Assembly: GCF_007860185.1 (NCBI RefSeq)
Contig: NZ_SJPY01000007.1
Coordinates: 124,001 to 188,000 of the forward strand
Direction of reading: 5' to 3'
DNA length: 64,000 nucleotides
Source of the DNA: Novipirellula aureliae
GTDB taxonomy: Bacteria; Planctomycetota; Planctomycetia; Pirellulales; Pirellulaceae
The notes below the pieces were generated by a model, which was given only the letters and a program-made list of their open reading frames with translations, was not told where the DNA came from and did no database searches. Shown here piece by piece: positions 11,015 to 64,000 of the stretch. Made by a program: the position numbers and the translations under genes. Position 1 is the first letter of the stretch. The number at the start of each line of letters is the position of its first letter.

Positions 11015-11220
11015 GAAGCCGTTCCAAAAAGAACAGAGAAAACAGACACTTATTTGAAAGGACGAGGAAAACTTAGCTCACATACGAACACAATTCCGAG
11101 CTTGCTTTTCGGATTCCGGAGCCGATGCCATACGTCCCCCCCCTGAAAACCAGCACAACCGGACTCATTCGCACAATGCGAATGCTTTTTCACCACTTGA
11201 TTTTAAACTTGGCAACACAG

Positions 11221-11691
11221 TGGCTGGGGCATCTTGCCACCGTAAGCTGCGGCTGGAAGCCACTGCCACGAAAAACACAGTGGCTGGGGCATCTTGCCCC
11301 AGCAAGCTGCGGCTGGAAGCCACTGCCACGAAAAACACAGTGGCTGGGGCATCTTGACCCAGCAAGCTGCGGCTGGAAGCCACTGCCACGAAAAACACAG
11401 TGGCTGGGGCATCTTGACCCAGCAAGCTGCGGCTGGAAGCCACTGCCACGAAAAACACAGTGGCTGGGGCATCTTGCCCCAGCAAGCTGCGGCTGGAAGC
11501 CACTGCCACGAAAACACAGTGGCTGGGGCATCTTGCCCCAGCAAGCTGCGGCTGGAAGCCACTGCCACGAAAACACAGTGGCTGGGGCATCTTGCCCCAG
11601 CAAGCTGCGGCTGGAAGCCACTGCCACGAAAAACACAGTGGCTGGGGCATCTTGCCCCAGCAAGCTGCGGCTGGAAGCCACAGCCACGAAA
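11221..11691. repeat. Eight-copy 60-bp tandem repeat with nested hairpins
   Basis: Units begin with TGGCTGGGGC at 11221, 11281, 11341, 11401, 11461, 11520, 11579 and 11639, seven near-identical and the last diverging at its end. Each unit contains the hairpin CTGGGGC-ATCTT-GCCCCAG and a second palindrome with core GGCTGGAAGCC. Units 1, 3 and 4 have point changes in the GCCCCAG arm. A degenerate solo copy lies at 31962-32012. All six frames across it are open because the unit length is a multiple of three and stop-poor; I do not regard these frames as genes. Confidence 0.9.
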
Positions 11692-12116
11692 GATGCTTAC
11701 CCTCGTTCTCCGTTGTGACAAAACACGAGTGCTCGGTCGAACAGATGCTCGCCGCTTTCAAAAGATTCTTAACGTCGTTAAGCTAATGCCCAGCGGCTAA
11801 TCCTAACATCGAATTTCGTTGAAGCACTCGCATAGAGCGTAAGTTTTTTGATGTTGCGTTTTGGCTTCGACGGCACGATGGGCATCGACTGCGGGGAGGC
11901 TTCAGAACTCCGAGGGAAGCAGCCCCGGGGTTACGGTGAACGTTTCGCTGTTCATCCTAATTGGAATGACAGGAACATCAGGCCGAAACCTGTCACCCCT
12001 CTCGGCACTTGGAACACTGGCTTGTTTCGTTCGTCGAACGATTGCTTTGGGGCTCGTGCTGACATCGCTACGCAACTATTGACCACCTTATCCCTTCACC
12101 CAAGTTATCCGTGTCC
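11692..12116. other. Gap without a convincing gene
   Basis: About 425 bp between the tandem repeat and the Nudix gene. Open frames of 73 and 121 codons exist on the plus strand, but they overlap each other in different frames, resemble no family I know and have no ribosome-binding site. Together with 11015-11220 upstream of the repeat this is a large non-coding island. Confidence 0.4.
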
Positions 12117-17439: not shown

Positions 17440-18300
17440 ATGAATCAATCGACTCGAGATGACGAATCGCCCTCCATCACACCGGTCCGTGTGGCCGACT
17501 ACCGATGCGGTGGCTCCGAGCCACTGATGTTGATCGCGGGGCCTTGTGTGCTGCAAACCCAGGAATTGGCGTTTGAAATCGCCGACCTGCTAACCAAAAT
17601 CAACGAGCGAAAAGACGTAAACGTTGTCTTTAAAGCATCGTTCGACAAGGCGAATCGCACCAGTGTTGATGCTCGCCGCGGTCCAGGCATCGACGAGGGG
17701 CTGCGACTATTGGAACAGGTTCACCGTCACAGTGGTTTGCCGGTTACTACCGACGTGCATTTGCCGGAGCATTGCGACCCTGTGTCGCAGGTCTGTTCAC
17801 TGCTTCAAATTCCCGCTTTTTTGGCTCGGCAAACCGATTTGGTTGTCGCTGCCGCAAAAACGGGCAAGCCAGTGAATATAAAGAAAGGACAATTCATGGC
17901 TCCCGAAGACATGCGATTTGTCGTCGAGAAGGCTCGAGCCAGTGGTGATGGCGGCGTGATGCTTTGCGAACGCGGGACGTTTTTTGGCTACGGACGTCTA
18001 GTCAATGACATGCAGTCGCTTCCAATCATGCGTTCTTTTGGCGTTCCGGTCGTGTTCGATGCGACCCATAGCGTCCAGCGACCGGGTGGGCTCGGCGGTG
18101 CGACAGGCGGAAATCGCGAAATGGTTGAACCATTGGCCCGCGCTGCCGTATCAATGGGTACCGATGCGCTGTTTTTCGAAACTCACCCCGATCCCGACAC
18201 TTCTCCAAGTGATGGGGCCAACATGATTCCGCTGGCGGCCTTCGAATCGATGATCGACAAGCTGTTGCAGCTACACGCGACGGTCCGATCACTTGGGTGA
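17440..18300 (+). CDS. kdsA: 3-deoxy-8-phosphooctulonate (KDO-8-P) synthase
   Basis: Condenses phosphoenolpyruvate with arabinose 5-phosphate, the first committed step to KDO for lipopolysaccharide, which supports a Gram-negative-type outer membrane. 286 residues, normal. Motifs: [57 protein letters not shown] and [12 protein letters not shown]. Cys36 in AGPC marks the metal-dependent class of the family, where the E. coli-type enzyme has Asn. A palindromic array starts 48 bp after the stop codon. Confidence 0.95.
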
Positions 18301-18347
18301 GTGACACGGCCTGCGCTGTGAATCTCGCTGGAGAGCTACTCGGGATA

Positions 18348-18672
18348 GGATCTTTAACAAGATCCACTACGGATACGTGGATGGGATCTTTAGATAAGAT
18401 CCACTACGGATACGTGGATGGGATCTTTGACAAGATCCACTACGGATACGTGGATGGGATCTTTGATAAGATCCACTACGGATGCGTGGATAGGATCTTT
18501 GACAAGATCCACTACGGATACGTGGATGGGATCTTTGACAAGATCCACTACGGATACGTGGATTGGATCTTTAACAAGATCCACTACGGATACGTGGATG
18601 GGATCTTTGATAAGATCCACTACGGATACGTGGATGGGATCTTTGACAAGATCCACTACGGATACGTGCAGG
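18348..18672. repeat. Nine-copy 36-bp palindromic tandem array
   Basis: Units start with GGATCT at 18348, 18384, 18421, 18457, 18493, 18529, 18565, 18601 and 18637; the second is 37 bp, the others 36, the last diverges at its end. Each holds a palindrome GGATCTTTGACAAGATCC (7-bp stem) and a second inverted repeat ATCCAC/GTGGAT around TACGGATAC, so the DNA alternates between two hairpins. There are no unique spacers, so it is not CRISPR. The array lies just after kdsA and before the lipoprotein gene. Its unit length keeps frames open, which extends the lipoprotein frame artificially upstream. Confidence 0.9.
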
Positions 18673-18719
18673 AAATTACGAATACCGGCGTTCACGCTTT
18701 TTATTCTCACAGACTTACG

Positions 18720-20516
18720 ATGGCTTCCACTCCTACCGCTACCTCATGTTCCTCCAATCGGTTAACGCTGATTACTAGCGTTCTGCTGACGAGTTTACTG
18801 CTTTTTGGCACACTGGTTTTCTCCGGGTGTGGCAAGAACGAGGATATTATTGGCCAGATCGAGGCCGACCGACAAGCTCGGCTGCAATCGCAGTCCAAGC
18901 AGGATCACCTTGGCCAAGTTCATCGGATGCTGACTCGTTTGATCGAACTAAACCCGGACGAAGCGAGTCGTCAAATCACCTACCACCTCAATCGCTGGCT
19001 CGAACAAAATCCGCTGCCCGAATTCGATCGATCGTCCTCCGGCAAACCCGCTATCCTCAAGACGGTCAACGAATATATCACGCCCGACGAGATCGATCGG
19101 GTCCTATTCAACAAGCGTTTTATACGCTCCGACGTCGATCATCTGCGAGACGCCTACCTGTTTCGTACGATTTTGCAATGGATCGATCGACCATCGAGCG
19201 ACGATCCGTTGCTAGCCGATTGGTTGGCGGATCAAACGGAAACGCTCGGAGAAGCCAATGCGACTCGATTACGTACTGCGACTCGGCTGTTCGATTGGAC
19301 GATTCGAAACATCGCCCTTGAACCAGCATTCGCGTCAGCCGACGGTCGGATTTCAGCCCCAACATTTCCACTGGGAATGGTATTCCAAGGTCCCGGCTAT
19401 CGGCAGACCGACTTTCAAACCGTGTGGCGAGGAATCGGTGATGGACTGCAGCGTGCTGGTGTCTTTACCCAGCTTTGCAACCAAGCCGGTATCGTTTCGG
19501 CTGTTCTTTCTCTGCAAATCGCCGACACCGGTGAACTTCGTCCTTGGGCCGTCGGTGTCTTGATTGGCGAGGACGTCTATCTGTTTGAGCCCAACTTGGG
19601 AATTTTTGTCCCGGGGCCCGATCAAATTGGAATTGCGACTTTGGCGCAAGCTAGGTCGGACGCCTCGGTCATGCGGCGGCTCAATATCCCAGGGTTCTTT
19701 GACTATCCGCTCAGCAAGCAGGATGTTCAGCAAAACACGGCGATGCTTAATATCACCCCAGTCGCGTTGAGCCCTCGCATGAAGCTCTTGCAATCCCGTT
19801 TAGCCGGAGAGCGACGAATGAATCTATTCACGGACGTCGATGCCGCGAGCAAACAACTTGATGCAGCAGTGGGGATTGCGGGCGTGCGTCTTTGGCCGGT
19901 CCCGATCTTGGCGGATGTCTACCAAGAAGCGTTAGCCAAAGCGGCTGAGCGAGATCCGATGCTGTCGGTTTGGCGCGATTCCTCTTGGGCGATTCTTGAA
20001 AGCGAAGCCGACTCGAGCAAAGAATTTGCTCTGGCTCGTTGGCGGCATTTACATGGCCAGTTTGACAATGATGAATCCAAAGACATGAAAGGCGCTCGCC
20101 CACTCTATCTGGCCCAAAGAGCACCCGAATTCGAAATTGAAGATTTGCGGATTGACGTCGACCTGCAGAAACAATATGGGGTCCGCCGGCAACTGGGCGT
20201 TGCACCCGAAGTCTACGATGCTCAGCTACAATTTGCGCAGCAAATGATGCAGTTCGGCAAACGGACCGCAACCTATTGGGTAAGCTTGATCCAGTACGAC
20301 GATGCTCGCTATGACAACGCCGTCACTTGGCTAAGAAAACGTGTGCTCGATGAAGGCCAATTGTCGCACTGGGTGCCGTCGGCCCAATACAACCTCGGTC
20401 GTTCGCTCGAACAACTCGGTGACGAGGAAGAGGCGATCGAGCTCTACAAGACCTCAGGCAATCTTCAAGAACATGGCAACCGAATCCGCGCCCGCTTGCT
20501 GTCGCGATCGCCGTAA
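18720..20516 (+). CDS. Conserved lipoprotein with C-terminal TPR
   Basis: 598 residues. A lipoprotein signal (LLTSLLLFGTLVFSGCGKNE, lipobox Cys near residue 39) sends it to an envelope membrane. The middle (GDGLQRAGVFTQLCNQAGIV, then RPWAVGVLIGEDVYLFEPN) vaguely recalls transglutaminase-like folds, but I cannot place a catalytic triad. The C terminus has TPR-like repeats (YNLGRSLEQLGDEEEAIELY). I start at the ATG at 18720 because everything upstream in the frame is the palindromic array. No neighbour suggests a function; conserved planctomycete hypothetical is the most I can say. Confidence 0.7.
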   Translation: MASTPTATSCSSNRLTLITSVLLTSLLLFGTLVFSGCGKNEDIIGQIEADRQARLQSQSKQDHLGQVHRMLTRLIELNPDEASRQITYHLNRWLEQNPLPEFDRSSSGKPAILKTVNEYITPDEIDRVLFNKRFIRSDVDHLRDAYLFRTILQWIDRPSSDDPLLADWLADQTETLGEANATRLRTATRLFDWTIRNIALEPAFASADGRISAPTFPLGMVFQGPGYRQTDFQTVWRGIGDGLQRAGVFTQLCNQAGIVSAVLSLQIADTGELRPWAVGVLIGEDVYLFEPNLGIFVPGPDQIGIATLAQARSDASVMRRLNIPGFFDYPLSKQDVQQNTAMLNITPVALSPRMKLLQSRLAGERRMNLFTDVDAASKQLDAAVGIAGVRLWPVPILADVYQEALAKAAERDPMLSVWRDSSWAILESEADSSKEFALARWRHLHGQFDNDESKDMKGARPLYLAQRAPEFEIEDLRIDVDLQKQYGVRRQLGVAPEVYDAQLQFAQQMMQFGKRTATYWVSLIQYDDARYDNAVTWLRKRVLDEGQLSHWVPSAQYNLGRSLEQLGDEEEAIELYKTSGNLQEHGNRIRARLLSRSP

Positions 20517-25524: not shown

Positions 25525-26384
25525 CAGAGTCAAACGCAATACTGGCTCGCTTGCTATGGAAGGATGCGAATACAGTCAAGTCGCTAGTTCTCGCCGTCCT
25601 CGTGGGGATCGTCAGCTTTCACCTGATCGCTGTGGCCGCCTTGTCCATCGACGGCAGATTTGTGATTGATCCTTTTGCGATGCTGTGGATTGTGATGCCA
25701 AACTTGTTCGCCATTGGTGCTCCGGCGGTACTAGTGGGAACTGAAGAGGATGCTGGAACACTCCGCTGGCTGCGCACTTTGCCGGTTAAGTGGCAGCACG
25801 TCGTCGGCTCGAAGTGCATCGTTGCGGTGGTAGCACTTCTTGCTGTTTGGGCGATCGCTTCGGCGATTATGTTGATCGCTAGTCTTGCGATTCCACCCAC
25901 ACGCGACCTGACGTTGGACGACTTGCGAATCATCGTTGGCGTGGCACCCCTGCTGTTCTTTAGCCTGATGTTGTTGTTGACGGGCTTTGTCACCTCCTAT
26001 CTCGTTCGATCTCCCGTCGGTGGTCTGCTGATGATGATACCAATGCGGATAGTAAAACGATCGGATGTTTCAGCCGATCGGCGTGCCACGCCGCGAGCAA
26101 TGGTTGTGGAGTTTGTTGCCAGCGTCCCGACGCCGCCAGCCCCGAAAATCACCTTGGAGATGAGTTCCATAGACCGTCCACGTGACGAAGAACGCGATCG
26201 GATCGTCATGATTCATGACAGATTGCCCCCTCATTTGAAACGATGCTTCCCCAACGAGTTTACCAAAAGCATCAGCCGCAGGGCGCTAGCCCAATGGCAC
26301 AGATATGTCGGCCTCTGGCCTGTTTATCGGGAACAAAAACAACACCATCACAACAAGTGTCAATCCCAGCTTTCAGCAATCTAG
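25521..26384 (+). pseudogene. ABC-2 type permease, apparently truncated
   Basis: Starts in ATGA overlap with the ATPase gene. Residues 1-175 are a normal permease N terminus with four membrane segments, including FAMLWIVMPNLFAIGAPAVL, a long one near 100-125 and VAPLLFFSLMLLLTGFVTSY. After GGLLMMIPM (about base 26045) the frame continues for some 110 hydrophilic residues rich in Arg, Pro and His with no membrane segment, and this DNA contains a GC-rich interspersed-repeat-like stretch (CGCAGGGCGCTAGCCC at 26278). The second half of the expected transporter is missing. Either a deletion or insertion broke the gene, or it is a half-size permease with a non-homologous tail. Confidence 0.6.
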
Positions 26385-26437
26385 CCTTGTCCCCTATTCG
26401 CGGTAATTGGCTAAGTCGTCGCTTCACGCACTACCTG

Positions 26438-27697
26438 TTACTCAGCCAAAAACGGTTGACATTCGGCTAGACAATCGGCGATTTGGTCGTAGATGTTGTG
26501 TAATTCCTCGTGCGAAAAAACGGGGCCGAGGGCTCGACGAATTCTTGTCGACAACGAACCGTGTTCCAGCACAATGTTTAAGGGCGTCATCAATCGGTCG
26601 AGTTCCTTATCGTTACCTCGAAGCGTCTTGACCAAGTACCACCAAAGATCCTGTGTCTTGATACGTTGATCCGAAATGCCAAAGTGTTCTAGGTACTCGG
26701 CATCCTCAATCACGGCTTGCTCGCCATGCCTTGAAATTCGAATCAGTAGATCTTTCAATCTCTCCGTCGGCATTGCCTTTTGCAGCTCCAAACCGCTCCA
26801 TCTCTGGGCGGAAATCGCCTTCATGACCGCAACGACGGCTGCACAGATCGCTACGTCCGCTGCCGGATACTCTTGCACATCCATCACTCTCAATTCCATC
26901 GACCCTCGGTCAAAACGGGCGATTGCACCGCGAGCGTTCAAAAAGTCGCACTGCATCAAATGTTCGGGATCAAACGGTCGAACCGCCGCTTCAATCGGCG
27001 CAAAAATCTGCCGTCGATAGGTGGCTTCCTCATAGATCGCTTCGGGAATGACATCGCCCATCATTACGGGGATTCGGGCGCAGTGGTCGACATACATCTT
27101 CATCCGCATCGAATGCCAATCACCCAACTGCGAGTCGATGACCGGTGAACTGGCGGCGATTCCAGGAAGTAGCGGCAACACCAATCGCACCGCAGCATGG
27201 AGACGCTCGAATTGTTCATCGCCATCAAAAGGCAAGTTCAAATGCACACTTTGAACGTTCGCCCATCCATGAGATCGACAATCAAAAATGCGGTCATAGC
27301 TCTCGTAAATCTCGCTACACTCATGCGGCCAAAGCTTCGTTTCCGTCTTGGGGTCCATCCACGGATGCATCGCGGTCGGCAGTAATCGCAAGTTCCGTTG
27401 ATCGAGCGTTGGCCGTATTTGTTGTATTGCCGATTCAAAAAGAGACGGCAATCGAATCAAGCTTCCGATCGGTTCTGTGTTTTTCAACTCAATCACATGA
27501 CTGGCCAACTCATTCGACCAAGTCGTTTTTCCTGATGTGAAATCGGACGGGAACTCGTTCGTATCGGTAGTTCCATGAAGCGATTGCAGAACTTGGTCGG
27601 CATAAGGCCGAACCGACAAATCGGTTTGATCCACCAACATGTACTCGAGTTCGACACCAAAACGATCAAATAATTCACGCTTAGGGTCATTGCTCAT
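26438..27697 (-). CDS. GCS2-type glutamate-cysteine ligase family protein (carboxylate-amine ligase)
   Basis: 419 residues of the glutamine synthetase-like COOH-NH2 ligase fold: FGVELEYMLVD at residues 14-24, SHVIELKNTEPIGSL, NVQSVHLNLPFDGDEQF and RFDRGSMELRVMDVQEYP. The family joins an amino group to a glutamate-like side chain using ATP. It is the last gene of the four-gene operon; its ATG overlaps the stop of the RimK-like gene (ATGA), so translation is coupled. With no glutathione synthetase next to it, a role in the operon's own product is likelier than in glutathione synthesis; the substrate is unknown. Confidence 0.85.
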   Translation of the reverse strand: MSNDPKRELFDRFGVELEYMLVDQTDLSVRPYADQVLQSLHGTTDTNEFPSDFTSGKTTWSNELASHVIELKNTEPIGSLIRLPSLFESAIQQIRPTLDQRNLRLLPTAMHPWMDPKTETKLWPHECSEIYESYDRIFDCRSHGWANVQSVHLNLPFDGDEQFERLHAAVRLVLPLLPGIAASSPVIDSQLGDWHSMRMKMYVDHCARIPVMMGDVIPEAIYEEATYRRQIFAPIEAAVRPFDPEHLMQCDFLNARGAIARFDRGSMELRVMDVQEYPAADVAICAAVVAVMKAISAQRWSGLELQKAMPTERLKDLLIRISRHGEQAVIEDAEYLEHFGISDQRIKTQDLWWYLVKTLRGNDKELDRLMTPLNIVLEHGSLSTRIRRALGPVFSHEELHNIYDQIADCLAECQPFLAE

Positions 27698-29247
27698 CCA
27701 ATCACCTCACCTGATTTCTTTCGTTCAATTCGCCTTAGGAAGGATTCCATAATTCGGCGATATAGGTCTTCTCTTAGCACGCTATCTTCGACCCCACTAT
27801 CGAGGTTGGGGTTGTCATTGACTTCGATAACATAGAACTTTCCATCGCTTTCTTTGACGTCGACACCATAGAGACCATCGCCGATCAAGTTGGCTGCTTT
27901 TACGGCGATATTGACTGCTTTTCGCGGAGCCAATTCAACGGGTAGCGTCTCGGCTCGGCCAAACGTTTGCTTGCCCTCCTCTCCGTACTTAGCGATTTGC
28001 CAATGGCCGCGTGCCATGTGGTATTTACTGGCAAAAAAGGCACGTCCATCGAGCACCCCGATCCGCCAATCGAAGTCGGTTTTCATAAATCGCTGCGCAA
28101 TCACCAGTTCGGAATGAGTGAACATCTCCTCGAGTTTCTCCGCCAATTCCGCTTCGGTCTCAGCCTTGGTCACCCCTTTGGAAAACGCACTGTCGGGGCG
28201 TTTCAAGACGCAAGGCAAACCGATTTCGGAAACAATTTTATCCGCGTTCGCACGATGAATCACAAACGTTTTGGGTGTATCGATTTTGGCTTTCTCTAAA
28301 ATTTCGGCCAAGTAAACCTTGTTCGTACAACGGATAATGGATTGGGGATCGTCGATCACGACCAAGCCTTCACGCTCGGCCCAACGAGCAAGCCGATAGG
28401 TGTAGTGGTTCACCGCTGTTGTTTCGCGAATAAACAACGCATCAAATTCCATCAGCCGACCTGCATCTTCGTGTGTGAGTAGCTCAGCATGGATTCCCAC
28501 CGCACTTGCCGCTTTGAGCATTTTGTGGAGTGCCTTTTCATCGGACGGTGCGAGTTCTTTTTCGAGCGGGTTGTGCAAGATTGCCAAGTCGTATCGCAGC
28601 GTATTCTTTTTTGATTTAGCAGCCCCTCGCCCGGCAAAATGCCGTTCGGCCTGCTCGGCGACGAAAGGCCAATGGGCTTTTGGTATTGATTTGGCTCCGA
28701 TAATCCCGCCTCTTTTCAAACGCCATTTGTCTTTACGGCGGGCAAAGTTAAATCGCAACAGTGGACAGGGGAATGTATTGAAGAGTTCTCGCGAGAGTCG
28801 ATCGTAGCGTTTTGCTAGGTTGCGGCCGAAGTAAACACTCAGCTCGAAGGTCTCTCCGGTCAGCGGTGCAAGCGATTGCTGTATCAGCTCATCAAGCTCG
28901 GATGAGATCAAACGGACATCCGTTGAGCCAACCAAGTCCTGGATGCCAGTGATGTTTGGCATCGGGCGATGGCCGCGTGCTTCCGCTAACAGCGAGACGT
29001 AATAGCCTAAACTTTGGTAGCGATAAGAATTGGCCAAGTTGTAGATTTTGATGCCTCGGCGGCGATTCCACATTGGATTGGTCAAATACTCACGAGGATC
29101 GACGACTTCGACTCCATCAATCGATTCGATCCATCCTGATTGAGATTCCGTTACAACGACATCGGACATGGGTAAAGTCTTTCCAATATTAGGCTTTTTC
29201 TTCGATCGCAGAAAAGCGTCAGGCGATTTGGAAGCATTAGGGTTCAT
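27694..29247 (-). CDS. RimK-like ATP-grasp ligase with RLAN-type N-terminal domain
   Basis: 517 residues. The N-terminal half (about residues 50-250) is the domain found before the ATP-grasp in this RimK subgroup: NLANSYRYQSLGYYVSLLAE, FGRNLAKRYDRLSRELF. The C-terminal ATP-grasp has TNKVYLAEILEKAKIDTPKT, LPCVLKRPDSAFSKGV (nucleotide-binding Lys and loop), DWRIGVLDGRAFFASKYHMA and the metal-binding end YGVDVKESDGKFYVIEVNDN. RimK-type enzymes add amino acids to a carboxyl group. The ATG at 29247 overlaps the peptidase gene; a second ATG at 29169 with GGAAAG upstream is an alternative. Confidence 0.88.
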   Translation of the reverse strand: MNPNASKSPDAFLRSKKKPNIGKTLPMSDVVVTESQSGWIESIDGVEVVDPREYLTNPMWNRRRGIKIYNLANSYRYQSLGYYVSLLAEARGHRPMPNITGIQDLVGSTDVRLISSELDELIQQSLAPLTGETFELSVYFGRNLAKRYDRLSRELFNTFPCPLLRFNFARRKDKWRLKRGGIIGAKSIPKAHWPFVAEQAERHFAGRGAAKSKKNTLRYDLAILHNPLEKELAPSDEKALHKMLKAASAVGIHAELLTHEDAGRLMEFDALFIRETTAVNHYTYRLARWAEREGLVVIDDPQSIIRCTNKVYLAEILEKAKIDTPKTFVIHRANADKIVSEIGLPCVLKRPDSAFSKGVTKAETEAELAEKLEEMFTHSELVIAQRFMKTDFDWRIGVLDGRAFFASKYHMARGHWQIAKYGEEGKQTFGRAETLPVELAPRKAVNIAVKAANLIGDGLYGVDVKESDGKFYVIEVNDNPNLDSGVEDSVLREDLYRRIMESFLRRIERKKSGEVIG

Positions 29248-30037
29248 CGAAAGTCTTGGCGACTTTCGCCACGGGACTCATCGCAAATTTTGCTGACATA
29301 GGCCTTTCGTGTTTTTTGCGAATCATCAATAAATTTGCGTCATAGGTGGCGATTCCAAGCAAAATCGCAGTGGCGACTTGCGATAGAGGGGCCGCATACA
29401 AATGCGTCTTCGCGATAGGATTGTTCTGCAAGGGGTCCGCCAACATGACTTGCCCTGTTTGCGTCTCGTAGCCATACAAAACCACAAAATGTCCTGCTGG
29501 CTCACCCAAAATATCGTTGGCGACACTGGTTCGGCCCCGCTCGTCACGGGGTTGTGAAACTTCGCGTGCTTCTTGGTAGAGGAACGTTGCGCTGAGCCCG
29601 CTCAGAATTGGTACGCCCGCGACCAAGCTACGAACAATCAAGTTTTCTTCGAGCGGCTCCATGTCGACGACGCCGCCGAGTTCTAGGAATTGCAGGTAGG
29701 CCTCGGTCGCGACATCAAAACGCTCATCCGTCGCACGTTTAGCCTCTCGTTGAGCAATCAACTTTTCGGCTAGATCGACGCGTCCAAATGGAAACCAGGT
29801 CGGATCGAAGAATTGGACGTTGTAGGTCACAATCGTTGCTTCGTATCCGCGCCGTAGTGCGTGACACGCCAACTGAACTGCCAACGTTCCACCTTTGGAA
29901 AACTGGCCGATTTCCTCTATCACTTGATCGAGCGATATCTCGTCTTTCCAATAGTTGTAGACAGCGTGTAAACAGGTGGGCCCGCAATCGGAATCGCTCG
30001 GTTGAGACTCAATACGAAGTGAAAGTTGATGCATCAA
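29237..30037 (-). CDS. C39-like papain-fold peptidase
   Basis: 266 residues. Catalytic residues of the C39/papain-like fold can be placed: Cys18 in SDCGPTCLHAVYNYW, His183 in AGHFVVLYGYE and Asp201 in VMLADPLQNNP; Gln12 is a candidate oxyanion residue. Bacteriocin-transporter C39 domains share this arrangement but here there is no ABC transporter attached and no signal peptide, so it acts in the cytoplasm. Overlaps the downstream RimK-like gene by 11 bp and lies 12 bp after the GNAT-nitrilase gene, in the same operon. It may cleave or rearrange the peptide-like product. Confidence 0.82.
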   Translation of the reverse strand: MMHQLSLRIESQPSDSDCGPTCLHAVYNYWKDEISLDQVIEEIGQFSKGGTLAVQLACHALRRGYEATIVTYNVQFFDPTWFPFGRVDLAEKLIAQREAKRATDERFDVATEAYLQFLELGGVVDMEPLEENLIVRSLVAGVPILSGLSATFLYQEAREVSQPRDERGRTSVANDILGEPAGHFVVLYGYETQTGQVMLADPLQNNPIAKTHLYAAPLSQVATAILLGIATYDANLLMIRKKHERPMSAKFAMSPVAKVAKTFDEP

Positions 30038-30049
30038 AATCGCGGCATG

Positions 30050-31681
30050 CTAAATGTCGCGAGTCCCATGTTCGGTGTGGTATCGAACGTTGTACAAATC
30101 CTGACGCCGATCGTTCCAATTCGTCACACTGCCTTGCTTCCTGTGGCGACGAAGCAGTTCGATATCGACATCGTGGATAACGACCATTTCAACATTCGGA
30201 TTCGCTTCGGCACCGATGGCATCGCGGGCAAAAGTGACATCTGCAGGAGTAAAAATCGCCGACTGTGCATAATGAATATCGGCATTTTCAACAAACGGTA
30301 AATTCCCCGTGCAACCGGCAATGGCAACATAAAAATGGTTTTCAACCGCCCTCGCTTGAGCACACATACGGACACGCAGATAGCCCAGTTGTGTATCAGT
30401 ATTGAAGGGCACAAACAACAGATTGGCCCCTCGCTCAGCAGCGATTCGCGACACCTCGGGGAACTGACAATCGTAGCAAACCTGGATCGAAATCGGCCCG
30501 CAATCGGTGTCAAACACCTCGACCTTATCGCCACCTTGTACGCCCCACCAATGTCGTTCGGAGGGAGTGATATGTAACTTGTATTGCTTTTCAATACTGC
30601 CATCGCGGCGAAACAAGAACGAGATGTTGTAGAGCGTGTCATCTTCGACCACAAAGTGGGACCCGCCAATGATGTTGGTATCGAACGCGATCGCCATCTC
30701 GGTAAACAGTTCCAAGTACTGAGGGGTGAATACGGACAATGCCCGCGCCGCGCTGCCTGGACGCTGGGACGGCAAGCATGACAACAACTGAAGCGTGAAG
30801 AGCTCGGGGAACAATAAAAAGTCACATTTGTAGTCACCTGCGACATCGACAAAGTATCGAGCCTGTTTAGCAAACTCGTCAAAATCCTTTACCGCTCGCA
30901 TTTGATACTGAACCGCTCCAATACGCACCAACTCAACGCTGCGGCGAAAACGACGGTTGGGGTTCACCGAATAATCGAGATTCTTCCATTCTAAGAACGT
31001 CGCGTATCCGGCACTTTCATGGTCCGATGGTAGATAGTTTGGAATCAGACCTTGAAGTGCGAAGCCGTTAGCAATTTGGGCAGTCAATACGGGATCGTAA
31101 AGAGACTTATCGACGACCCCTTCGACGTATTCGCGCGCGGACATTTTATCCGCATACTTGTGAAAGCCAGGGATTCGACCGCCAATGATGATGCGAGCGA
31201 TGTTCTTTTGCCGGCAAAGGTCTTTGCGAGCTTGATACAACCGCCGTGATAACCGCATCCCACGATACTCGGGGTCAACCATAATCTCGATGCCATACAT
31301 CGTATCACCCGTCGGCACGTGATTGCGTATGAAACCTCCATCGGCCATCACCTTCCAATTATGCCATTCCAAACTGTCATCAAAATTGACCAAGAGTCCA
31401 CTGCACGACGCGACGACTTTACCGTCGCATTCGATCACCATTTGACCTTCGGGAAAACGAGCCAACTGACTTTGCAGTTGCTCGATCGTCCAAGTCTCCA
31501 TATCAGGAAAGCACTTCTTTTGAATCCGAATCAATGCCTCAAAATCTTCGAGCCTCGTTTGTCGAACGACAAGATTCCATTCAAATTGTCGCAAATCGAT
31601 CTCATCGCTCGATCCGGATGTCGTTTTGATGTCAGGTTGGTTGGCTTGGCCCTGGTCGCAGTCAGACACGGATTCTCCCAT
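30050..31681 (-). CDS. Fusion of GNAT acetyltransferase and nitrilase-family amidohydrolase
   Basis: 543 residues. GNAT domain at about 37-215: [20 protein letters not shown], then the acetyl-CoA loop region [20 protein letters not shown]. Nitrilase domain at about 252-530 with the full triad Glu293 (LFPELF), Lys368 ([16 protein letters not shown]) and Cys402 ([11 protein letters not shown]). Nitrilase-fold enzymes hydrolyse or transfer amides; the acetyltransferase would modify an amine. First gene of the operon, reading on to the C39-like peptidase, the RimK-like ligase and the GCS2-type ligase. This fused architecture is known in public databases, but its substrate is not. Confidence 0.9.
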
Positions 31682-31961
31682 GAGTTCTGGTTTAGGAATC
31701 TTTAGGAGCGATTACAAAAGCATATCGCGTCGCTAACTTTGCGAATCATATCCACCTCCACTCTTTCCGCGAGTGGTCAAGTTTCCATTTTCGACAAATT
31801 GTTGCGGCATTGAGCTAAGGGCGTCCCCAAAGACAACATTTATACGTAAATTACTTGATTAACTGGATCGACGGTCAGAATCCCGTGATTCGGTCGCTCG
31901 CATCGCCCCAGAAAATCCTAGGGTTATGTGACCGCTTGATTTGAGGCTTGGCAAAAGAGTG

Positions 31962-32012
31962 GCTGGGCATCTTGACCCGGTAAGCTGCGGCTGGAAGCCA
32001 CAGCCACCAAAG
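31962..32012. repeat. Solo degenerate copy of the 60-bp repeat
   Basis: TGGCTGGGCATCTTGACCCG, then TAAGCTGCGGCTGGAAGCCA, matches the unit tandemly repeated at 11221-11691, and the words before and after (ATTTGAGGCTTGGCAA, GGCTTACTCTC) also echo that locus. It sits in the 418-bp gap between the amidoligase operon and glnE; the rest of the gap shows no gene. Confidence 0.75.
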
Positions 32013-32099
32013 AGGCTTACTCTCATACTTCGGTGGGACAAAGCGATCGACTTGCGGGGAGCGTAAAGCCTGTGAATCGGTTGATTTCTTTCGGATCGA

Positions 32100-35000
32100 T
32101 TACCCGATCCATCGCTTGAAAATTCGCTCGAAAAGTTTGCGGTTGCGATGCCTTGCTTGGTGACAGGCCGCGGCAATCATTCTCGGGTCCTCCTCATTCA
32201 TGAGGAACGCCAATTTCTGCATCAGGTACTCCTGGTCGGGCAACTCGTGCCGAGCTTGCGAATTCATCAATCGCAAGTTCAACTCGATCGCTCGGATCGT
32301 TCGGTAGCCTGTAATCAATTGCAACGATTCTTCTTCGGGCAAATGACCAGCTTTGGCAAGCGTCTGAAGTGCCTCAATGGTATTGGACTTGAGGATGGTC
32401 GTGGAGTCGGAAGCAAAACGTAGCATCAAAGTTTGCGTGACGAACTCGACATCCAACGTTCCTCCTTCTCCCCGTTTGAAGTTTTCGGGCGTGGCCGTTT
32501 CTTGCAATTGCATACGCAGCTCGAAGAACTTGGCTGCCAGATCTTCGAACTTCATCGATTTTGTCCAGGCCGATTCCGCGATCACTCGCTTAATGGCCGA
32601 ATCGAGCGATTGTCGTTTTTTTCGCGAACCGCTAATCGTTCTTGCTCGACAAACCGCCATCCATTGCCACGGTAGAGCTGAACCGTCTTGAAAGCGAGCC
32701 AAAAACTCTTCCACGGATTCGGCCAGAACGCCTTCTTCACCCGCTGGTCTCAAGCGTCCATCGAGTTCGTAGAGTCGCCCGCTTGGGCCAGCGGTATCGA
32801 TGCGGGCAATCATGCGATTCACAAGTCGATTGAAAAAGTCTCGGTTGCTAGTTGTCGAACGAGGACCACCGACGCGCCGCTGAGTTTCTCCCTCGGCAGA
32901 GTACAAGAAGATGGCGTCAAGCTTGCTGTGATAATTAGGCTCTCTGCCCCCAAGTTTACCTAGCCCGACGATCATCAGCTCTACGGGTGAGCCCGTTGGA
33001 TCGACTGGATCACCAAACTGCCGGGCCAACTGTTCTTGTTCAAACGCTGCGATTCGCCGCAAACAGGCTTCAGCGGTGTCGGCAATTGCGGCCTGCGTTG
33101 CCGCCAAGGACTCTTTGCCTAAGATATTTCGAACGCCAATCGTCAAATGAGCACTTGACTTGAAACTGTGCAAGATCAGGTCAATCTCTGCCGCTCCTCG
33201 GCAAAGCTCAATCGATTGCGCGTCCAAACGTTCCGCAGACGGCAAACGATCGATCAACAGTGAATCGATTAACTCATCGATCATCCCTGGATTGTCGGTC
33301 AAGATTTCGACCAAATAAGGAGCCGCCGAACAGATCCGTACCATCATTTGCATGGTCGGCCGGTTTGCCGAAAGAAGTTCCCATAGAGTCCCTTTGGCGC
33401 CCAACGAATCGGCCACCCTAACGAGGGATGCCAACGTCCGACCGGGCATCGGAGTTCGCGAAATCTCGGCAAGCAGCGGTGGTGCAATTAAAGAGAAAAA
33501 ATGCCGGCATCGATGAGGAGACAAGAAGGGAACCGATTCCGTACTCAGGGCAACCAAATCCTCCATCGCACGCCGAGGATGTTTCATGCCATGCTTAGAC
33601 AAAATTTGTTCGACCAGCTCAGGGGAGGGATCGGGGTCAAGCATCAACTCGGTTTCGCTGGCCACCGACGTCCCATCATCAGGAGCATCAAGCATCAAGT
33701 GATTAATGATCCGGCGATTGATTTCAAAGATCTCTTTTAGCTGTGCCAAGAATTTTTCCGCATTTCCTTGAAGCGTCTCCATGTCTCGCAGACCAAGTCG
33801 CCAAGCCAACCGTTGGATTTTTTCCGTTTCGGTCGGCAGATCTCCGGCAAAGGAATCAAACATAACCGCAAGTTGGCTTTGTAGCCGACAAAGCTGTGCA
33901 TGATTCTTTGAAAGCAGCGATGCTTCCTGGTCGGTCACGCATCCCGCTTTTTCCAGGGCAACGATCGCATCGTAGGTATTGCCAACTCGGACATTCGGTA
34001 GATCTCCCCCATGCAGCAATTGCAGAAACCGGATCGTTCGTTCAATGTCTTTTTTTCCTCCGGCAGCCGTATGAATGTTGACAACGACACCCCCCTGATC
34101 ATGGGTCAATTCTTCAGAAGATTGGTTGCGACTCGTCGTGGCTGATGATTGCGTCCGCCGCGCCAACTTTTGCCGAAAGGTACGAATCTCGGCAATATCC
34201 GCCCGGCTAATGAATCGTCGGTACACCCAAGGCTCTAGCCGCTTGAGAAATGCGGAGCCCAATTCGGCGTCGCCGGCAACGACACGAGCCTTGATGAACC
34301 CAAGCCGTTGCCAAGTCCGACCGGAGGTTTCGAAAATCCGTCCCGCGTCAAACGAACTACAAATCAGCGTGCCTGTTTCGTATTTAGGGTTTCCACGAAA
34401 ATCAAGGTTCAAACCCCGCTCTCCTTCAATCATATACAGCCCATCACATCGTAGAATCTGCGTGAATTCGTTGATCAGATCGGCGTAATAGGCACGGTGA
34501 GCTTGGTTCCATTGATCAATCCGGTCGTAGAGGAACACAAGTTTTAGAGCATCGCCAAAGTTCATTTCTTCGGCACCGAGATTTGTCATTCCAATGACAA
34601 CCAATTTCGGCGAATCGCCGTTGGGTAACTGAGGCTCATCACGGGTTTGACGAAAATAGTCTTGGCAAAAATGGAAACCCACTCTGACAACCGCTTCGGC
34701 GAGGTAGGTTAACCGACGGCCGACGCGTTCGGGGGACATTGAACGGACGAACTGCAAGAATTCGATTCGTCCCGTTTCCTGCTGCACAAAGTCATGGATC
34801 ACGCGTGCGGCAACCACCGGCTCCTTGACCGCTTCGATACGACTTTCGAGATCGCTAAGCAAGTCGTTTGGATCAAACGATTGGCTCGCACAAGAGCGAA
34901 GTTGCTCAAACCAATCGGGTTTCGCAATGAGTTGCTTCGATAACGACTCGCTCGTCGCAAAAAGTTGCAACAATTCCGCCAGCGACGATGGTTCGCTTTG

Positions 35001-35679: not shown

Positions 35680-37272
35680 ATGATGGGAAAGAAATTTAGA
35701 AGCCGCAGTCTACAAGACGACGCCTACGATGCCGAGGAATCGGTTACCCGACGGACCCGCGTCATGGGAGAACAATACGTCGACGCCGAAGATGAGGATT
35801 CGGTCGAAATGAGCGAGGAGGAGGCCGAGTTGTTGCAACGCCGCCTCGAAGTGGAAACCGACCCCACCGAAGACCCCGTCCGCATGTATTTGATGCAAAT
35901 GGGACAAATTCCTCTACTCAGCCGAGACCAAGAGGTTTCGGCAGCCAAACAGATCGAACGAACGCGGTTGCGTTACCGGCACTGGATGCTCGCGACCGAC
36001 TTCATGCTCCAAGGTGCACTCAAACTACTCGAACAAGTTCGTGACAAGAAACTCCGGCTCGATCGCACGATTGAAGTCAGTGTTACCAACGCGGCCGAAA
36101 AGAAAGCGATCATGAGACGGATCGTTCCCAACGTCCGCACGCTGCAACATCTATTGAAACAAAATCGGCTCGATTTTCTCGCAGCGATCAACAAAAAACT
36201 TAGCATGCGCAGACGCCGTGCCGCATGGAAGAATCTGGTCATCCGCCGCAATAAAGCGGTCCGTCTGATCGAAGAGATGAATCTCCGAACCAATAAGTTG
36301 GAACCGCTCTACGAAAAAATGCGTAAGACGGTAATCCGCATGGAAGAGATCCAATCATTACTTGGCGATCCCGCTCGCCTGCAACTTCCTGCAATGCCAA
36401 CGGAAGAGGAATTGCGAAATGAACTGCATTACTTGATGCGGTTGACTTTTGAGACACCCAAAACGCTGTCGCGCCGCGTCAGGCGATGCGATCACTACAG
36501 TGAAGACTACGATGCCGCCAAACGTATTTTGTCGGCCGGAAATTTGCGACTCGTTGTGTCGATCGCCAAAAAGTATCGCAATCGAGGCTTGTCCTTCTTG
36601 GACTTGATCCAAGAGGGAAATACGGGACTGATGCGAGCGGTCGACAAATTCGAACATGCCAGAGGCTATAAGTTTAGCACGTACGCAACGTGGTGGATTC
36701 GTCAAGCGATTACACGAGCGATCGCAGATCAAAGCCGAACCATTCGAGTGCCGGTACATATGATCGATACCATGAACAAGATCCGTCAAATCACTCGTGA
36801 CTTGGTTCAAGAGAATGGTCGTGAACCGACGGCTGAGGAAGTGTCGGCACGCAGCGGTTTGGGAATCGACGACACACGAGTGATTCTGAAGATGAGCCGC
36901 CAGCCGTTGTCGCTCGATCAACCGATCGGTGACCACGACGAAAGCGTGTTCGGCGAGTTCCTCGAAGATTATCGTGATGACGATCCTCTGCTCGAATCGA
37001 ACCGCGAAGCCCTGAAAGCTCAAATCGATATGGCAATGGAAACGCTAAACTATCGTGAACGCGAAATCCTACGGCTTCGCTACGGTTTGGCTGACGGCTA
37101 CACCTACACACTTGAAGAAGTGGGACGGATCTTCCACGTCACTCGCGAGCGTGTGCGTCAAATTGAGAGCAAGGCGGTTCGCAAGCTACAACAGCCTTAC
37201 CGAGCCAAATCGCTGGTCAGCTTCTTGGACGGTGCCGAGATCACGATCCTGGAAAACAGCGAAGTTTTGTAG
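35680..37272 (+). CDS. rpoD: Primary RNA polymerase sigma factor (sigma-70)
   Basis: Housekeeping sigma factor. Region 1.2: [20 protein letters not shown]; a long non-conserved insert; region 2: [40 protein letters not shown], and the -10 recognition helix [20 protein letters not shown]; region 3: [12 protein letters not shown]; region 4: [20 protein letters not shown] with the -35 helix [18 protein letters not shown] prefer the ATG at 35680, preceded by GAGGAGA, giving [11 protein letters not shown]; the ATG at 35584 would add 32 unrelated residues. The upstream gap (35286-35679) has no gene; a TGTTG/CAACA inverted repeat lies near 35508. Confidence 0.93.
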
Positions 37273-37316
37273 GGACGCGTCCGCCTTTTTTCCGACTGGC
37301 ATCTTAACGTGTCGTG

Positions 37317-37652
37317 AATCTTGTTAAAGATGCACTGCACGCGAGGATCTTTAACAAGATCCACTGCACGCGAGGATCTTTAACAAGATCCACTACACGC
37401 GAGGATCTTTTACAAGATGCACTGCACGCGAGGATCTTTAACAAGATCCACTACACGCGAGGATCTTTTACAAGATGCACTGCACGCGAGGATCTTTAAC
37501 AAGATCCACTACACGCGAGGATCTTTTACAAGATGCACTGCACGCGAGGATCTTTAACAAGATCCACTACACGCGAGGATCTTTTACAAGATGCACTACA
37601 CGCGTGGATCTTTTACAAGATGCACTACACGCGAGGATCTTTAACAAGATCC
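37317..37652. repeat. Twelve-copy 29-bp palindromic tandem array between convergent genes
   Basis: Eleven units start with GGATCT every 29 bp from 37345 to 37635, preceded by a degenerate unit at 37317. The 18-bp core is GGATCTTTAACAAGATCC or the variant GGATCTTTTACAAGATGC; the 11-bp linker is ACTGCACGCGA or ACTACACGCGA. From unit 2 to unit 8 the two core variants alternate, giving a 58-bp higher-order period. The array lies between the 3' ends of rpoD (plus) and the NagB fusion gene (minus), so a two-way transcription barrier is plausible. Confidence 0.92.
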
Positions 37653-37695
37653 ACTACCGCCAACTCAAATGAGTGCCCATGACACACCACGGTTG

Positions 37696-39651
37696 TTACA
37701 ACTCGATCCCGGTGTGACCGTCCCAGCGGACAAAGCCTTCGATGGCTGCATATTCCGCCAATCCCAACATGTCGTAGCGTTTGGCTGTTTCGGCATTGCG
37801 TGCTTCGGCACGTTGCCAAAATTCACGCATATCCGAACCTGGGAAAAGGGCTCGGTCTTTTTGAGATTCATGCTTGAAGATCGCAATCCGTTTACGCTGA
37901 ACTTCCGCCGGACTGAGCGGCACCGCCATCTCGATTTGTTCGCACGCCCATTCTTGCCAGGCACCGCGGTAAAGCCAAACCTGGGCGACTTGATACCAAT
38001 CGTCATCGCGGCAATGTTCGCACGCTTTCAAAATCGCGCTTAGGCAGGTCCGATGCGTGCCGTGCGGGTCGGAGAGATCACCAGCGGCATAGATCTGGTG
38101 CGGCTTGACCTGACGTAGCAAATCAACAGTGATCTCAATGTCTCGCTCTGAAAGTGGATTCTTCTTGATCCGGCCCGTTTGGTAAAACGGCAAATCAAGA
38201 AAATGCAGATTCTCCTCTGGCACGCCACAGCATCGAGCTCCCTCTCGAGCTTCACTGCGGCGAATGAGCCCCTTGATTCGCTGTACTTCCGGACTATCGA
38301 CTTGAGCAGACCGTTTGTTCCTAAGAAACTCGTCGACATGGTTTTCCAACTCGTCGAGGCCCGCCGCGGCAATGTGAAACTCACGGCAAAAATCAGCTGC
38401 AAACTCAGCGAATTTGAGCGCATCATTGTCGAAGACCGCAATATTACCCGAGGTTTGGTAAGCGATATGAACCTGATGGGATTGATCGACCAAACGAATC
38501 AAGGTTCCTCCCATGGAAATCACATCATCATCGGGATGCGGTGAAAAAACAATCACTCGTTTCGGAAAGATATCGTCACGGTTGCCCGGCCGATCACCAA
38601 CCTGTTTTGCATGTGCCGGCTTACCACCTGGCCAACCAACGATTGTCGATTGCAAATGCCGGAAAACTCGCAGGTTAATATCATAAGCACTCCCAAAATT
38701 TGCTAACAAGTCCTGGAATCCCGCTTCGTTGTAATCCGCCTCCGTTAGTTTCAAGATGGCTTTTTGGGTTTGAAACGCAAGTGAGATGACGGCGCGACGG
38801 GTGATGGTATCGTCCCAGACAATCGGCCCTACGAGCCATGGGGTGGCGAACCGTGTTAGCCCCGACGCCCCCGCTTCGTCCAAGAAGACCTCAACCGAAT
38901 CGTGCGATTGCAAGAACGAGGCCGGGTTGGAGGCCGTTATTTCCTCTTCGACGGTTTTGGCAACAATCGATGCTTTCCCCTCACCGAACGCCAACAAGAA
39001 CAAGCGGCGTGCTTCTAGAATCGTGCCCACACCCATTGTGATCGCATGACGTGGCACGTTCTCCGCTCCAAAGAAATCGCTCGCGGCGTCGGTCCGGGTC
39101 ACTTGATCAAGCGTGATCATTCGCGTCCGCGTACTCTCATCACTTCCCGGTTCATTGCTGCCAATATGCCCATTTCGACTCAGCCCCAGAATTTGCAAAT
39201 CGATCCCGCCGGCGTCGATGATCTGCTGCTCATACTTCGTGCAATACTCCGCGACATCCTGTTTCGCAATCGAACCGCACATAAAGTGAATATTCGCTTC
39301 GTCAATATCGACATGATCGGTCAAATGCTCGCGCAAAAACCGATCGTTACTCTGCAGCTCATCCGTTTGCATCGGATAATATTCGTCAAGATTGAAGACA
39401 ATGACGTTGCGAAAAGAAAGCCCATCCTGTTGATGCAGTCGAACCAATTCTTCGTAGATTCGCGTCGGCGAAGAGCCGGTCACCAATGAGAGGACGCAGT
39501 TCAAACCTTCGAGCGCTCGAGCGCGAATCAAACGAGCGATTTCTGCCGCTGCAGCAATACTAGCGTCCGATGCTTTGGCATAAACCCGGCATGGGATCTT
39601 TTCGTTGCGATCAAGTTGAGTGTTTGACAATGCAGAATTGATAACGTTCAT
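37696..39651 (-). CDS. Glucosamine-6-phosphate deaminase-like / PIG-L (LmbE) deacetylase fusion
   Basis: 651 residues. N-terminal half is NagB-like: LVTGSSPTRIYEELVRLHQQ, FNLDEYYPM (catalytic Asp), MGVGTILEARRLFLLAFGEG. In the active-site loop E. coli NagB has GNDGHIAFNEP; here it is SRNGHIGSNEP, so the triad Asp is Asn while His and Glu are kept. The C-terminal half is a PIG-L type Zn deacetylase: VFSPHPDDDVISMGGTLIRL and DPHGTHRTC. Together they could deacetylate and deaminate an amino sugar. The ATG at 39651 overlaps the ROK kinase stop (TGATG). The open frame upstream to 40119 lies inside the kinase gene and is ignored. Confidence 0.88.
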   Translation of the reverse strand: MNVINSALSNTQLDRNEKIPCRVYAKASDASIAAAAEIARLIRARALEGLNCVLSLVTGSSPTRIYEELVRLHQQDGLSFRNVIVFNLDEYYPMQTDELQSNDRFLREHLTDHVDIDEANIHFMCGSIAKQDVAEYCTKYEQQIIDAGGIDLQILGLSRNGHIGSNEPGSDESTRTRMITLDQVTRTDAASDFFGAENVPRHAITMGVGTILEARRLFLLAFGEGKASIVAKTVEEEITASNPASFLQSHDSVEVFLDEAGASGLTRFATPWLVGPIVWDDTITRRAVISLAFQTQKAILKLTEADYNEAGFQDLLANFGSAYDINLRVFRHLQSTIVGWPGGKPAHAKQVGDRPGNRDDIFPKRVIVFSPHPDDDVISMGGTLIRLVDQSHQVHIAYQTSGNIAVFDNDALKFAEFAADFCREFHIAAAGLDELENHVDEFLRNKRSAQVDSPEVQRIKGLIRRSEAREGARCCGVPEENLHFLDLPFYQTGRIKKNPLSERDIEITVDLLRQVKPHQIYAAGDLSDPHGTHRTCLSAILKACEHCRDDDWYQVAQVWLYRGAWQEWACEQIEMAVPLSPAEVQRKRIAIFKHESQKDRALFPGSDMREFWQRAEARNAETAKRYDMLGLAEYAAIEGFVRWDGHTGIEL

Positions 39652-63501: not shown

Positions 63502-63605
63502 CCCAGGCTTCCAGCCTGGGGACCGAAAACATCTAGGCTGGAAGCCTAGGGGACCGAAGACTCCCAGACTAGAAGCCTAGGCCACGAAAACATCTAGGCT
63601 GGATG
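63502..63605. repeat. Cluster of GGCTTCCAGCC-type palindromes
   Basis: CCCAGGCTTCCAGCCTGGG (63502-63520) is a perfect palindrome around TCC; CTAGGCT-GGA-AGCCTAG (63533-63549) is another; degenerate copies follow at 63565-63581 and 63592-63602. The same core occurs at 1815, in every unit at 11221-11691 and at 31989. More copies lie at 63870-63912. Confidence 0.75.
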
Positions 63606-64000
63606 ATTCATTAGCCGTTTTGGCGATAGCGGCCTGCTGATTTAATCGTTTAACGCTTAGCCGAAGGCGTCAGCTTTTCCATAATCGGTCGCCTATGGCT
63701 TGGCGCTAAACAATAAGTCGAGTCAAACGGATTAAATCGACAGCCCGCTAACGCCAAAACGGCTAATACGCAGACTGTTTTTCGAGCAATGAACGTAAAC
63801 GCTTGAAGGCGTAGACGTTAGCAAAACAACTTGCAAGCCCATGAATCATCCGGGATAGGGGACCGAAGACTCCCAGGCTGGAAGCCTAGGCCACGAAGAC
63901 ATCTAGGCTGGAGGATTCATTAGCCGTTTTGGCGATAGCGGCCTGCTGATTTAATCGTTTAACGCTTAGCCGAAGGCGTCAGCTTTTCCAAAAGCGGTCG
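63557..64000. repeat. 309-bp tandem duplication, running off the window
   Basis: The stretch starting CCGAAGACTCCCAG at about 63558 recurs at about 63866, and the following 130 bp (ATTAGCCGTTTTGGCG from 63610, again from 63919, up to CGGTCG) is nearly identical. The offset is 309 bp. The second copy is cut by the window end. Confidence 0.8.
63610..63767. mobile_element. Foldback, MITE-like element
   Basis: 37-bp imperfect terminal inverted repeats: ATTAGCCGTTTTGGCGATAG at the left (63610-63646) and, at 63731-63767, sequence ending CGCCAAAACGGCTAAT. Inside, GTTTAACGCTTAGCC and GGCTTGGCGCTAAAC also pair, so nearly all of the 158 bp can fold. No coding frame. A second left end starts at 63919. 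No target-site duplication was established. Confidence 0.55.

Follow-up and report, generated by a model that had tools for sequence, protein, structure and literature searches.

Four genes stand close together on the minus strand of a 64,000-nucleotide stretch of Novipirellula aureliae DNA (contig NZ_SJPY01000007.1, positions 124,001 to 188,000; hereafter the window), and they raise the question of whether they form one conserved system and what such a system would make. The genes encode a GNAT-nitrilase fusion protein, a C39-like peptidase, an ATP-grasp ligase with an N-terminal RLAN domain and a GCS2-type ligase. The conserved unit, as found by comparison with other genomes, is composed of the C39-like peptidase, the RLAN-RimK ligase, the GCS2 ligase and an N-formylglutamate-amidohydrolase-like gene, denoted as FGase. 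By our estimate the chances are evenly balanced that the locus holds most of a conserved cytoplasmic pathway that builds and recycles a small non-ribosomal peptide. These four families share their pattern of presence and absence, two are fused in some genomes, and all of the curated functions were missed. The cluster is thereby a testable candidate for an uncharacterised bacterial metabolite or modification.

C39-like peptidase, RLAN and GCS2 genes form a conserved core

The RLAN domain (PF14401) was chosen as the marker because it is the rarest. In a set of 60 genomes, comprising the window genome and 59 relatives, RLAN was present in 16, and GCS2 and C39 relatives of the window proteins were found in the identical 16; the chance of one such 16-genome match is 7e-15 when kinship is ignored. 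The C39 matches of four genomes in this search (G002, G037, G044 and G021) have an internal in-frame stop. We also searched a sample of 236 Planctomycetota for RLAN, GCS2, FGase and the GNAT-nitrilase. RLAN was found above 350 bits in 52 genomes, a count that omits 9 of 61 genomes with scores of 272 bits or less, in which the match covers mainly the ATP-grasp half. GCS2 was present in 47 genomes and both were present in 45 (hypergeometric probability 2e-38, kinship ignored), and in 45 of these 45 the two genes were adjacent on one strand. GCS2 occurred without RLAN in G063 and G248, and RLAN without GCS2 in G147, G170, G184, G185, G202, G210 and G252. Since dozens of genomes have three of the window genes together, their grouping is not due to chance.

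The window contains a cluster of the GCS2 kind, in which C39, RLAN and GCS2 genes lie in a row on one strand (26438-30037). The same order was also seen in Planctomycetota loci, Pelagicoccus and locus L040. The two Pelagicoccus genomes have a C39-RLAN-GCS2-FGase cluster, and RLAN, GCS2 and FGase are adjacent in a Legionella adelaidensis record. Cys18, His183 and Asp201 of the peptidase, which a preliminary description of this DNA had singled out, are invariant together with Gln12 in 22 aligned rows including the window. This and the other alignments (A1, 24 rows; A2, 16; A3, 32; A4, 22) were made from hand-picked loci.

The preliminary description had taken the four visible genes for an amidoligase set with peptidase and acyltransferase partners, a view that was to fall if they were not conserved together. 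Such a set with such partners is present indeed, but the four-gene operon as a conserved unit was rejected: C39, RLAN and GCS2 are conserved together, whereas the nitrilase gene is optional and the core lacks it. The remark that the operon has no transporter holds. Apart from RLAN, C39, GCS2 and FGase, no neighbour cluster occurred in more than 7 of the GCS2-type loci, and no recurrent transporter was recognised, one 7-locus cluster being unassigned.

The fourth core gene lies outside the window

In 18 loci the FGase gene (about 251 amino acids; PF05013 in the three members scanned) lies downstream of GCS2. Its subfamily is present in 14 of the 16 RLAN genomes, with at least 298 bits in each, and the copy of G005 holds an in-frame TAG. 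In the window no FGase gene lies next to GCS2; in the window genome it is at C7:480991-481671, on the same contig as the operon and about 325 kb away. Among the 236 Planctomycetota, FGase was detected above 180 bits in 35 genomes (3 of 38 genomes fall below this score and are omitted), every one with GCS2, and it was within 600 bp of GCS2 in 29 of the 35. As such, a reading of the single locus is misleading: the window lacks the fourth core gene, and the fourth gene that it does show is optional.

A second and more distant FGase relative of the window genome is located at G000:C1:143147-143833 (162 bits). At the end of the window, 63594-63939 carries a duplicated 145-nucleotide element, and stretches of the window end recur with 97% identity over 121 nucleotides at L107:8024-8184, near the FGase gene at C7:480991. 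This shared stretch is a possible trace of how the FGase gene moved. One gene of cluster k4 adjoins FGase in each of L107 and L108. When 18 regions around stand-alone GNAT-nitrilase or FGase genes were compared, no other gene cluster occurred in more than 4 of the 18.

The two ligases are fused in some genomes

RLAN followed by GCS2 was found in one open frame of 974-1022 amino acids in five genomes (G182, G207, G291, G177 and G235), the frame of G291 running from the contig edge. The C39 gene lies directly upstream of the fusions of G182 and G177, and in G177 the FGase gene also lies directly downstream. The fusion is good evidence for joint action of the two ligases.

The AlphaFold model of the GCS2 protein had a predicted local distance difference test (pLDDT) score of 92.5, and its best Foldseek matches were YbdK 1r8g, 1tt4 and the plant glutamate-cysteine ligase 2gwc (E 2e-14 for YbdK), with further matches to the bifunctional glutathione synthetases 3ln6 and 3ln7 and to E. 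coli-type glutamate-cysteine ligase. The model of the whole RLAN protein (pLDDT 84.6) matched Ddl, LysX and RimK, and the nearest sequences of its ATP-grasp half among solved structures are RimK and LysX. In 32 aligned rows Lys349 and the E[VI]N[DE]NP motif of the ATP-grasp domain are kept. The loop preceding the second ATP-grasp motif, which binds the amino substrate in LysX and RimK, is replaced by a conserved HWQI-type motif. Based on this replacement, the amine partner of the RLAN ligase would not simply be glutamate in the manner of RimK.

RLAN loci are of two kinds

Accompanying the RLAN gene, a RimI-like acetyltransferase cluster was found in 51 loci of Bacteroidota and Desulfobulbaceae-type genomes. 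In Planctomycetota loci that have RLAN without GCS2, a RimI-like GNAT adjoins or is fused to RLAN in 6 of 7 (L138, L139 and L141-L144). The fused proteins, with an acetyltransferase domain ahead of the RLAN ligase, have 654 and 652 amino acids (L141:6861-8825 and L142:5957-7915). When at least 1.5 kb on either side of RLAN was required, 98 loci were divided into 60 with GNAT, 34 with C39 and/or GCS2, 4 with neither and 0 with both. The corresponding numbers for all 114 loci, which include several per genome (e.g. L022/L113 and L030/L033) and leave out the short loci L001-L017, were 64, 43, 7 and 0. Twenty of the regions compared were hand-picked.

On an RLAN tree of 106 sequences, built by a quick method with long branches flagged and omitting sequences shorter than 430 amino acids, L112, L113, L123 and identical sequences, the GNAT and GCS2 labels were clustered without forming one clade each, and 4 to 6 changes were counted. 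The exclusivity thus represents a few switches rather than dozens. Should the GNAT/GCS2 swap prove to be real chemistry, it would account for one ligase family standing in two seemingly unrelated contexts.

In Azospirillum and Tistrella, RLAN is preceded by a gene for a fusion of GNAT with a DUF3335 C39-like domain. This domain was considered as an ortholog of the window peptidase; in a profile comparison the two match weakly (probability 7.2, E 0.0049), and the catalytic motifs line up. DUF3335 C39-like domains are frequently fused to GNAT, according to a passage of PMC10318531. A citrate-synthase cluster and a SET-domain cluster were each found in 12 Desulfobulbaceae-type loci, the families being identified in L097. 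Ten loci have both (L070, L074, L083, L086, L090, L092, L093, L096, L097 and L103), and the gene order in L097 and L074 is citrate synthase, RLAN, GNAT, SET. In L125, a Pseudomonas aeruginosa plasmid record that may be the PA1345 region, RLAN lies downstream of pagP and an SDR gene, and no partner was seen within 5 kb. PA1345 is tabulated among Cpx-linked genes as a hypothetical ATP-binding protein in a section of PMC12802237.

The GNAT-nitrilase is an optional partner

Matches to the GNAT-nitrilase at E 1e-20 were obtained in 20 of the 60 genomes, of which some cover just the GNAT half. Copies of at least 60% identity were found in 13 genomes (one partial), 10 of which are among the 16 RLAN genomes, and the nearest relative (88%, in G002) is encoded on a contig other than that of RLAN. 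Counted at E 1e-100 or better, the GNAT-nitrilase is present in 35 of the 236 Planctomycetota, of which 24 have GCS2. It is enriched in GCS2 genomes (24 of 47, compared with 11 of 189 others, kinship ignored), and of the 24 genomes having both, only 2 have it at a distance of 6 kb or less from GCS2. Its position also varies, since it is upstream of C39 in the window, L027 and L034, after FGase in L029, and between GCS2 and FGase in L136/G075. Because of these three different cluster positions, we read the GNAT-nitrilase as an optional helper that was recruited more than once.

The triad of Glu293, Lys368 and Cys402, described earlier as intact, is invariant in 12 aligned rows including the window. 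The GNAT loop reads RGMRLS or RGMKLS in 11 of the 12 and QGMRLG in L097. The nitrilase scored under the cut-offs of the curated models for N-carbamoylputrescine amidase (TIGR03381, 59.1 bits with a cut-off of 410.25) and deaminated glutathione amidase (NF033621, 35 with a cut-off of 355). The glnE gene just upstream of the operon was considered as a part of the system and set aside; in a nucleotide search, the GNAT-nitrilase gene is all that the window has in common with L114, the locus of its closest relative. A gene of cluster k14 adjoins the GNAT-nitrilase in each of L119 and L124.

Proposed pathway and alternative explanations

The comparison establishes that the genes co-occur, are adjacent, are fused in some genomes and keep their catalytic residues. 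With two fused or adjacent ATP-dependent ligases, two amide hydrolases and a cap derived from an acetyltransferase or from a GCS-fold ligase, the simplest reading would be that two ligations yield a small peptide, seemingly of glutamate type, which is then recycled in the cytoplasm. The RLAN ATP-grasp ligase would activate a carboxylate with ATP and couple it to an amine, and a further amide bond would come from the GCS2 ligase, with a gamma-glutamyl-type cap at the amine of the product as the likeliest form. In the sister systems without GCS2, the RimI-like acetyltransferase probably supplies an acetyl cap. The C39-like peptidase and FGase may then cleave the product or side-products, and the GNAT-nitrilase, if present, could perform an extra acylation or repair a deaminated gamma-glutamyl product. 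Passages of PMC4431377 state that linked peptide ligases often perform successive ligations, and they propose a second ligation or a GNAT-derived acyl cap for the families treated there. Similarly, an excerpt of PMC8070244 describes Ngg, in the synthesis of N-acetylglutaminylglutamine amide (NAGGN), as combining acetylation and ligation in one enzyme.

A broader proposal, which we regard as rather doubtful, is a new and widespread class of bacterial metabolites in which an RLAN-made peptide core is capped at its amine interchangeably by GCS2 gamma-glutamylation or GNAT acetylation, and to the same tentative degree C39 and FGase would be the turnover enzymes of the gamma-glutamylated form. The phyla spanned are Planctomycetota, Verrucomicrobiota, Acidobacteriota, Pseudomonadota, Bacteroidota and Thermodesulfobacteriota.

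Several observations weigh against a capped small peptide made and recycled by these enzymes. FGase is missing from G037 and G054 among the 16 RLAN genomes and, at the score used above, from 12 of the 47 GCS2 genomes, and a weaker relative (154 bits) occurs in G001, where RLAN is absent. C39 was not seen in the Legionella record of 9 kb. In L140, which has RLAN without GCS2, a recognised partner is absent. The exclusivity of GNAT and GCS2 was drawn from related and partly hand-picked loci, and 2 to 4 of the switches are forced by well-supported branches of the RLAN tree. The GNAT-nitrilase is lacking at E 1e-100 from 23 of the 47 GCS2 genomes, and in the Desulfopila locus L097 it lies near an RLAN gene of the GNAT kind. 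Finally, RimK and LysX, to which the ATP-grasp half is similar, have proteins as their substrates, and the GCS2 model resembles PafA/Dop, if more weakly (E about 1e-5).

These last two resemblances would fit protein modification, in which RLAN and GCS2 would attach amino acids or a short tail to a target for C39 and FGase to take off again, in the manner of RimK/RimB or PafA/Dop. The pairing of ligase and peptidase is also that of RimK/RimB, as a passage of PMC12239564 has it, and the SET-domain cluster near RLAN in the Desulfobulbaceae-type loci hints at protein modification in that branch, as SET enzymes usually methylate proteins. However, no conserved gene for a small protein or peptide tag recurs beside the cluster: among 649 ORFs (open reading frames) of 20-90 amino acids, taken from 23 loci within 1 kb outside the operon spans, matches were found only within the pairs L019/L020 and L106/L149. 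The curated models for RimK S6-glutamate ligase (NF007764, 38.6 bits with a cut-off of 331; TIGR00768, 86.4 with 143.4) and LysX/ArgX (TIGR02144, 78.2 with 275.6) were missed as well, and the substrate loop of RimK and LysX is exchanged for the conserved HWQI-type loop. We judge this explanation unlikely.

Somewhat less probable still is an acetyl-dipeptide osmolyte pathway similar to that of NAGGN, in which the GNAT-nitrilase would do the acetylation. While the GNAT-RLAN fusions of L141 and L142 echo the acetyltransferase and ligase of Ngg, and the GNAT-nitrilase is enriched in GCS2 genomes, about half of these genomes do without it. The NAGGN synthase model TIGR03103, with a cut-off of 569 bits, gave 20.6 on L141 and 26.2 on L143 and does not appear in the family listings of the window proteins (for the RLAN protein, the best 25).

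An ordinary low-molecular-weight thiol or glutathione-type pathway seems very improbable: although GCS2 and ATP-grasp are both folds of glutathione enzymes and the Foldseek matches of GCS2 include YbdK, glutamate-cysteine ligases and bifunctional glutathione synthetases, the curated GshA, YbdK and glutathione-synthase models scored far under their cut-offs (48/176.4, 29.1/249, 24.8/425 and 23.6/272 bits), PF04262 is absent from the window genome, PF04107 occurs there in this GCS2 gene only, and the distribution is patchy (16 of 60). A glutathione role for the GCS2-type gene, which the preliminary description had named as a finding that would overturn its view, did not emerge. PF02955 matches two other ATP-grasp genes in the window genome, which is weak evidence for glutathione because the profile also matches Bacillus subtilis.

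Gene boundaries and other features of the window

All four genes were found as minus-strand ORFs of the families named at the outset, and the Pfam matches agree (Table 1). The ATP-grasp protein belongs to the RLAN amidoligase family, as its RLAN domain scores above the curated cut-off and is followed by a RimK-like ATP-grasp domain.

Table 1. Positions in the window, strand and supporting matches of the operon genes and their domains
Feature	Coordinates	Strand	Basis
GCS2-family carboxylate-amine ligase (amidoligase 2), 419 amino acids	26438..27697	-	PF04107, 75.3 bits (Pfam GCS2 cut-off 21)
RLAN-RimK ATP-grasp ligase (amidoligase 1), longest ORF 517 amino acids	27694..29247	-	PF14401, 147.3 bits (cut-off 25); PF08443, 45.2 bits (cut-off 21)
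RLAN N-terminal domain, residues 52-198	28654..29094	-	Pfam
RimK-like ATP-grasp domain, residues 309-484	27796..28323	-	Pfam
C39-like papain-fold cysteine peptidase, 266 amino acids	29237..30037	-	PF03412/PF13529; Peptidase_C39 34.2 bits (cut-off 22), Peptidase_C39_2 34.7 bits (cut-off 24)
GNAT-nitrilase fusion, optional partner, 543 amino acids	30050..31681	-	PF00583 + PF00795; CN_hydrolase 103.4 bits (cut-off 23.2), Acetyltransf_1 35.7 bits (cut-off 20.7)
GNAT domain of GNAT-nitrilase, residues 48-165	31187..31540	-	Pfam
Nitrilase-superfamily domain, residues 253-514, triad E293-K368-C402	30140..30925	-	Pfam

The ORFs are separated by a 12-bp gap, an 11-bp overlap and a 4-bp overlap, of which the gap and the shorter overlap stand as first described and the longer overlap is open to doubt. 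In the ATP-grasp ORF the pLDDT of residues 1-25 is below 50, the nucleotide similarity of the gene to L027 and L034 starts exactly at 29169, and the ORF of Rhodopirellula maiorica (L034, 491 amino acids) begins at the equivalent position. Based on these three points, translation probably begins at Met27 (29169), and the 11-bp overlap would then be an artefact in place of which a 67-nucleotide gap remains. The peptidase ORF has a TTG start, and the in-frame ATG directly after it, at 30034, is a possible alternative. No RNA element was found in 26000-32600 at Rfam gathering scores, and promoter and terminator scans gave no clear excess over shuffles.

Upstream of the operon, an intergenic repeat at 31965-32042 is 86% like the unit at the end of a 60-nucleotide tandem array (11212-11751). 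Two further tandem arrays have units of 29 nucleotides (37255-37713) and 36 nucleotides (18354-18740), the latter corresponding to a 12-amino-acid repeat at the start of the ORF 18297-20516.

Comparison with known systems

Among solved structures, RimK/RimB and LysX/ArgX are nearest to the ATP-grasp ligase in sequence and also match it well in fold, but the window ligase has an extra RLAN domain and an altered substrate loop and missed their curated models. Glutathione synthesis by GshA/GshB or the bifunctional fusion likewise uses GCS-fold and ATP-grasp ligases in series, sometimes in one protein; it differs in that its curated cut-offs were missed and that the present cluster has C39, FGase and nitrilase in addition. 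In bifunctional glutathione synthetases the GCS domain comes first, whereas the present fusions begin with the ATP-grasp half. The YhcX-type GNAT-nitrilase of Bacillus is likened to the window protein by description only, in that it has the two-domain layout of GNAT and nitrilase. In IAA (indole-3-acetic acid) papers such as PMC4558970, yhcX is named alongside nitrilase.

The NAGGN system (Ngg, AsnO and a glutamyl aminopeptidase), as excerpted in PMC8070244, also combines acetylation with ligation in one enzyme and a peptidase gene to give a small peptide. Its ligase is of another family, the present cluster has no amidotransferase, and the Ngg model was missed here. The rlo operon, likened by description only, is another system of ATP-grasp ligase and peptidase in a passage of PMC12239564. 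Among the matches listed from the open-licence literature, we found no paper on this gene set. The general kind of this cluster is reportedly that of the RLAN/RimK-like amidoligase neighbourhoods predicted by Iyer, Abhiman, Burroughs and Aravind in 2009, which are said to combine ATP-grasp and GCS2 or GNAT ligases with papain-like peptidases. Taken as a whole, the cluster is a variant of this predicted kind of amidoligase neighbourhood.

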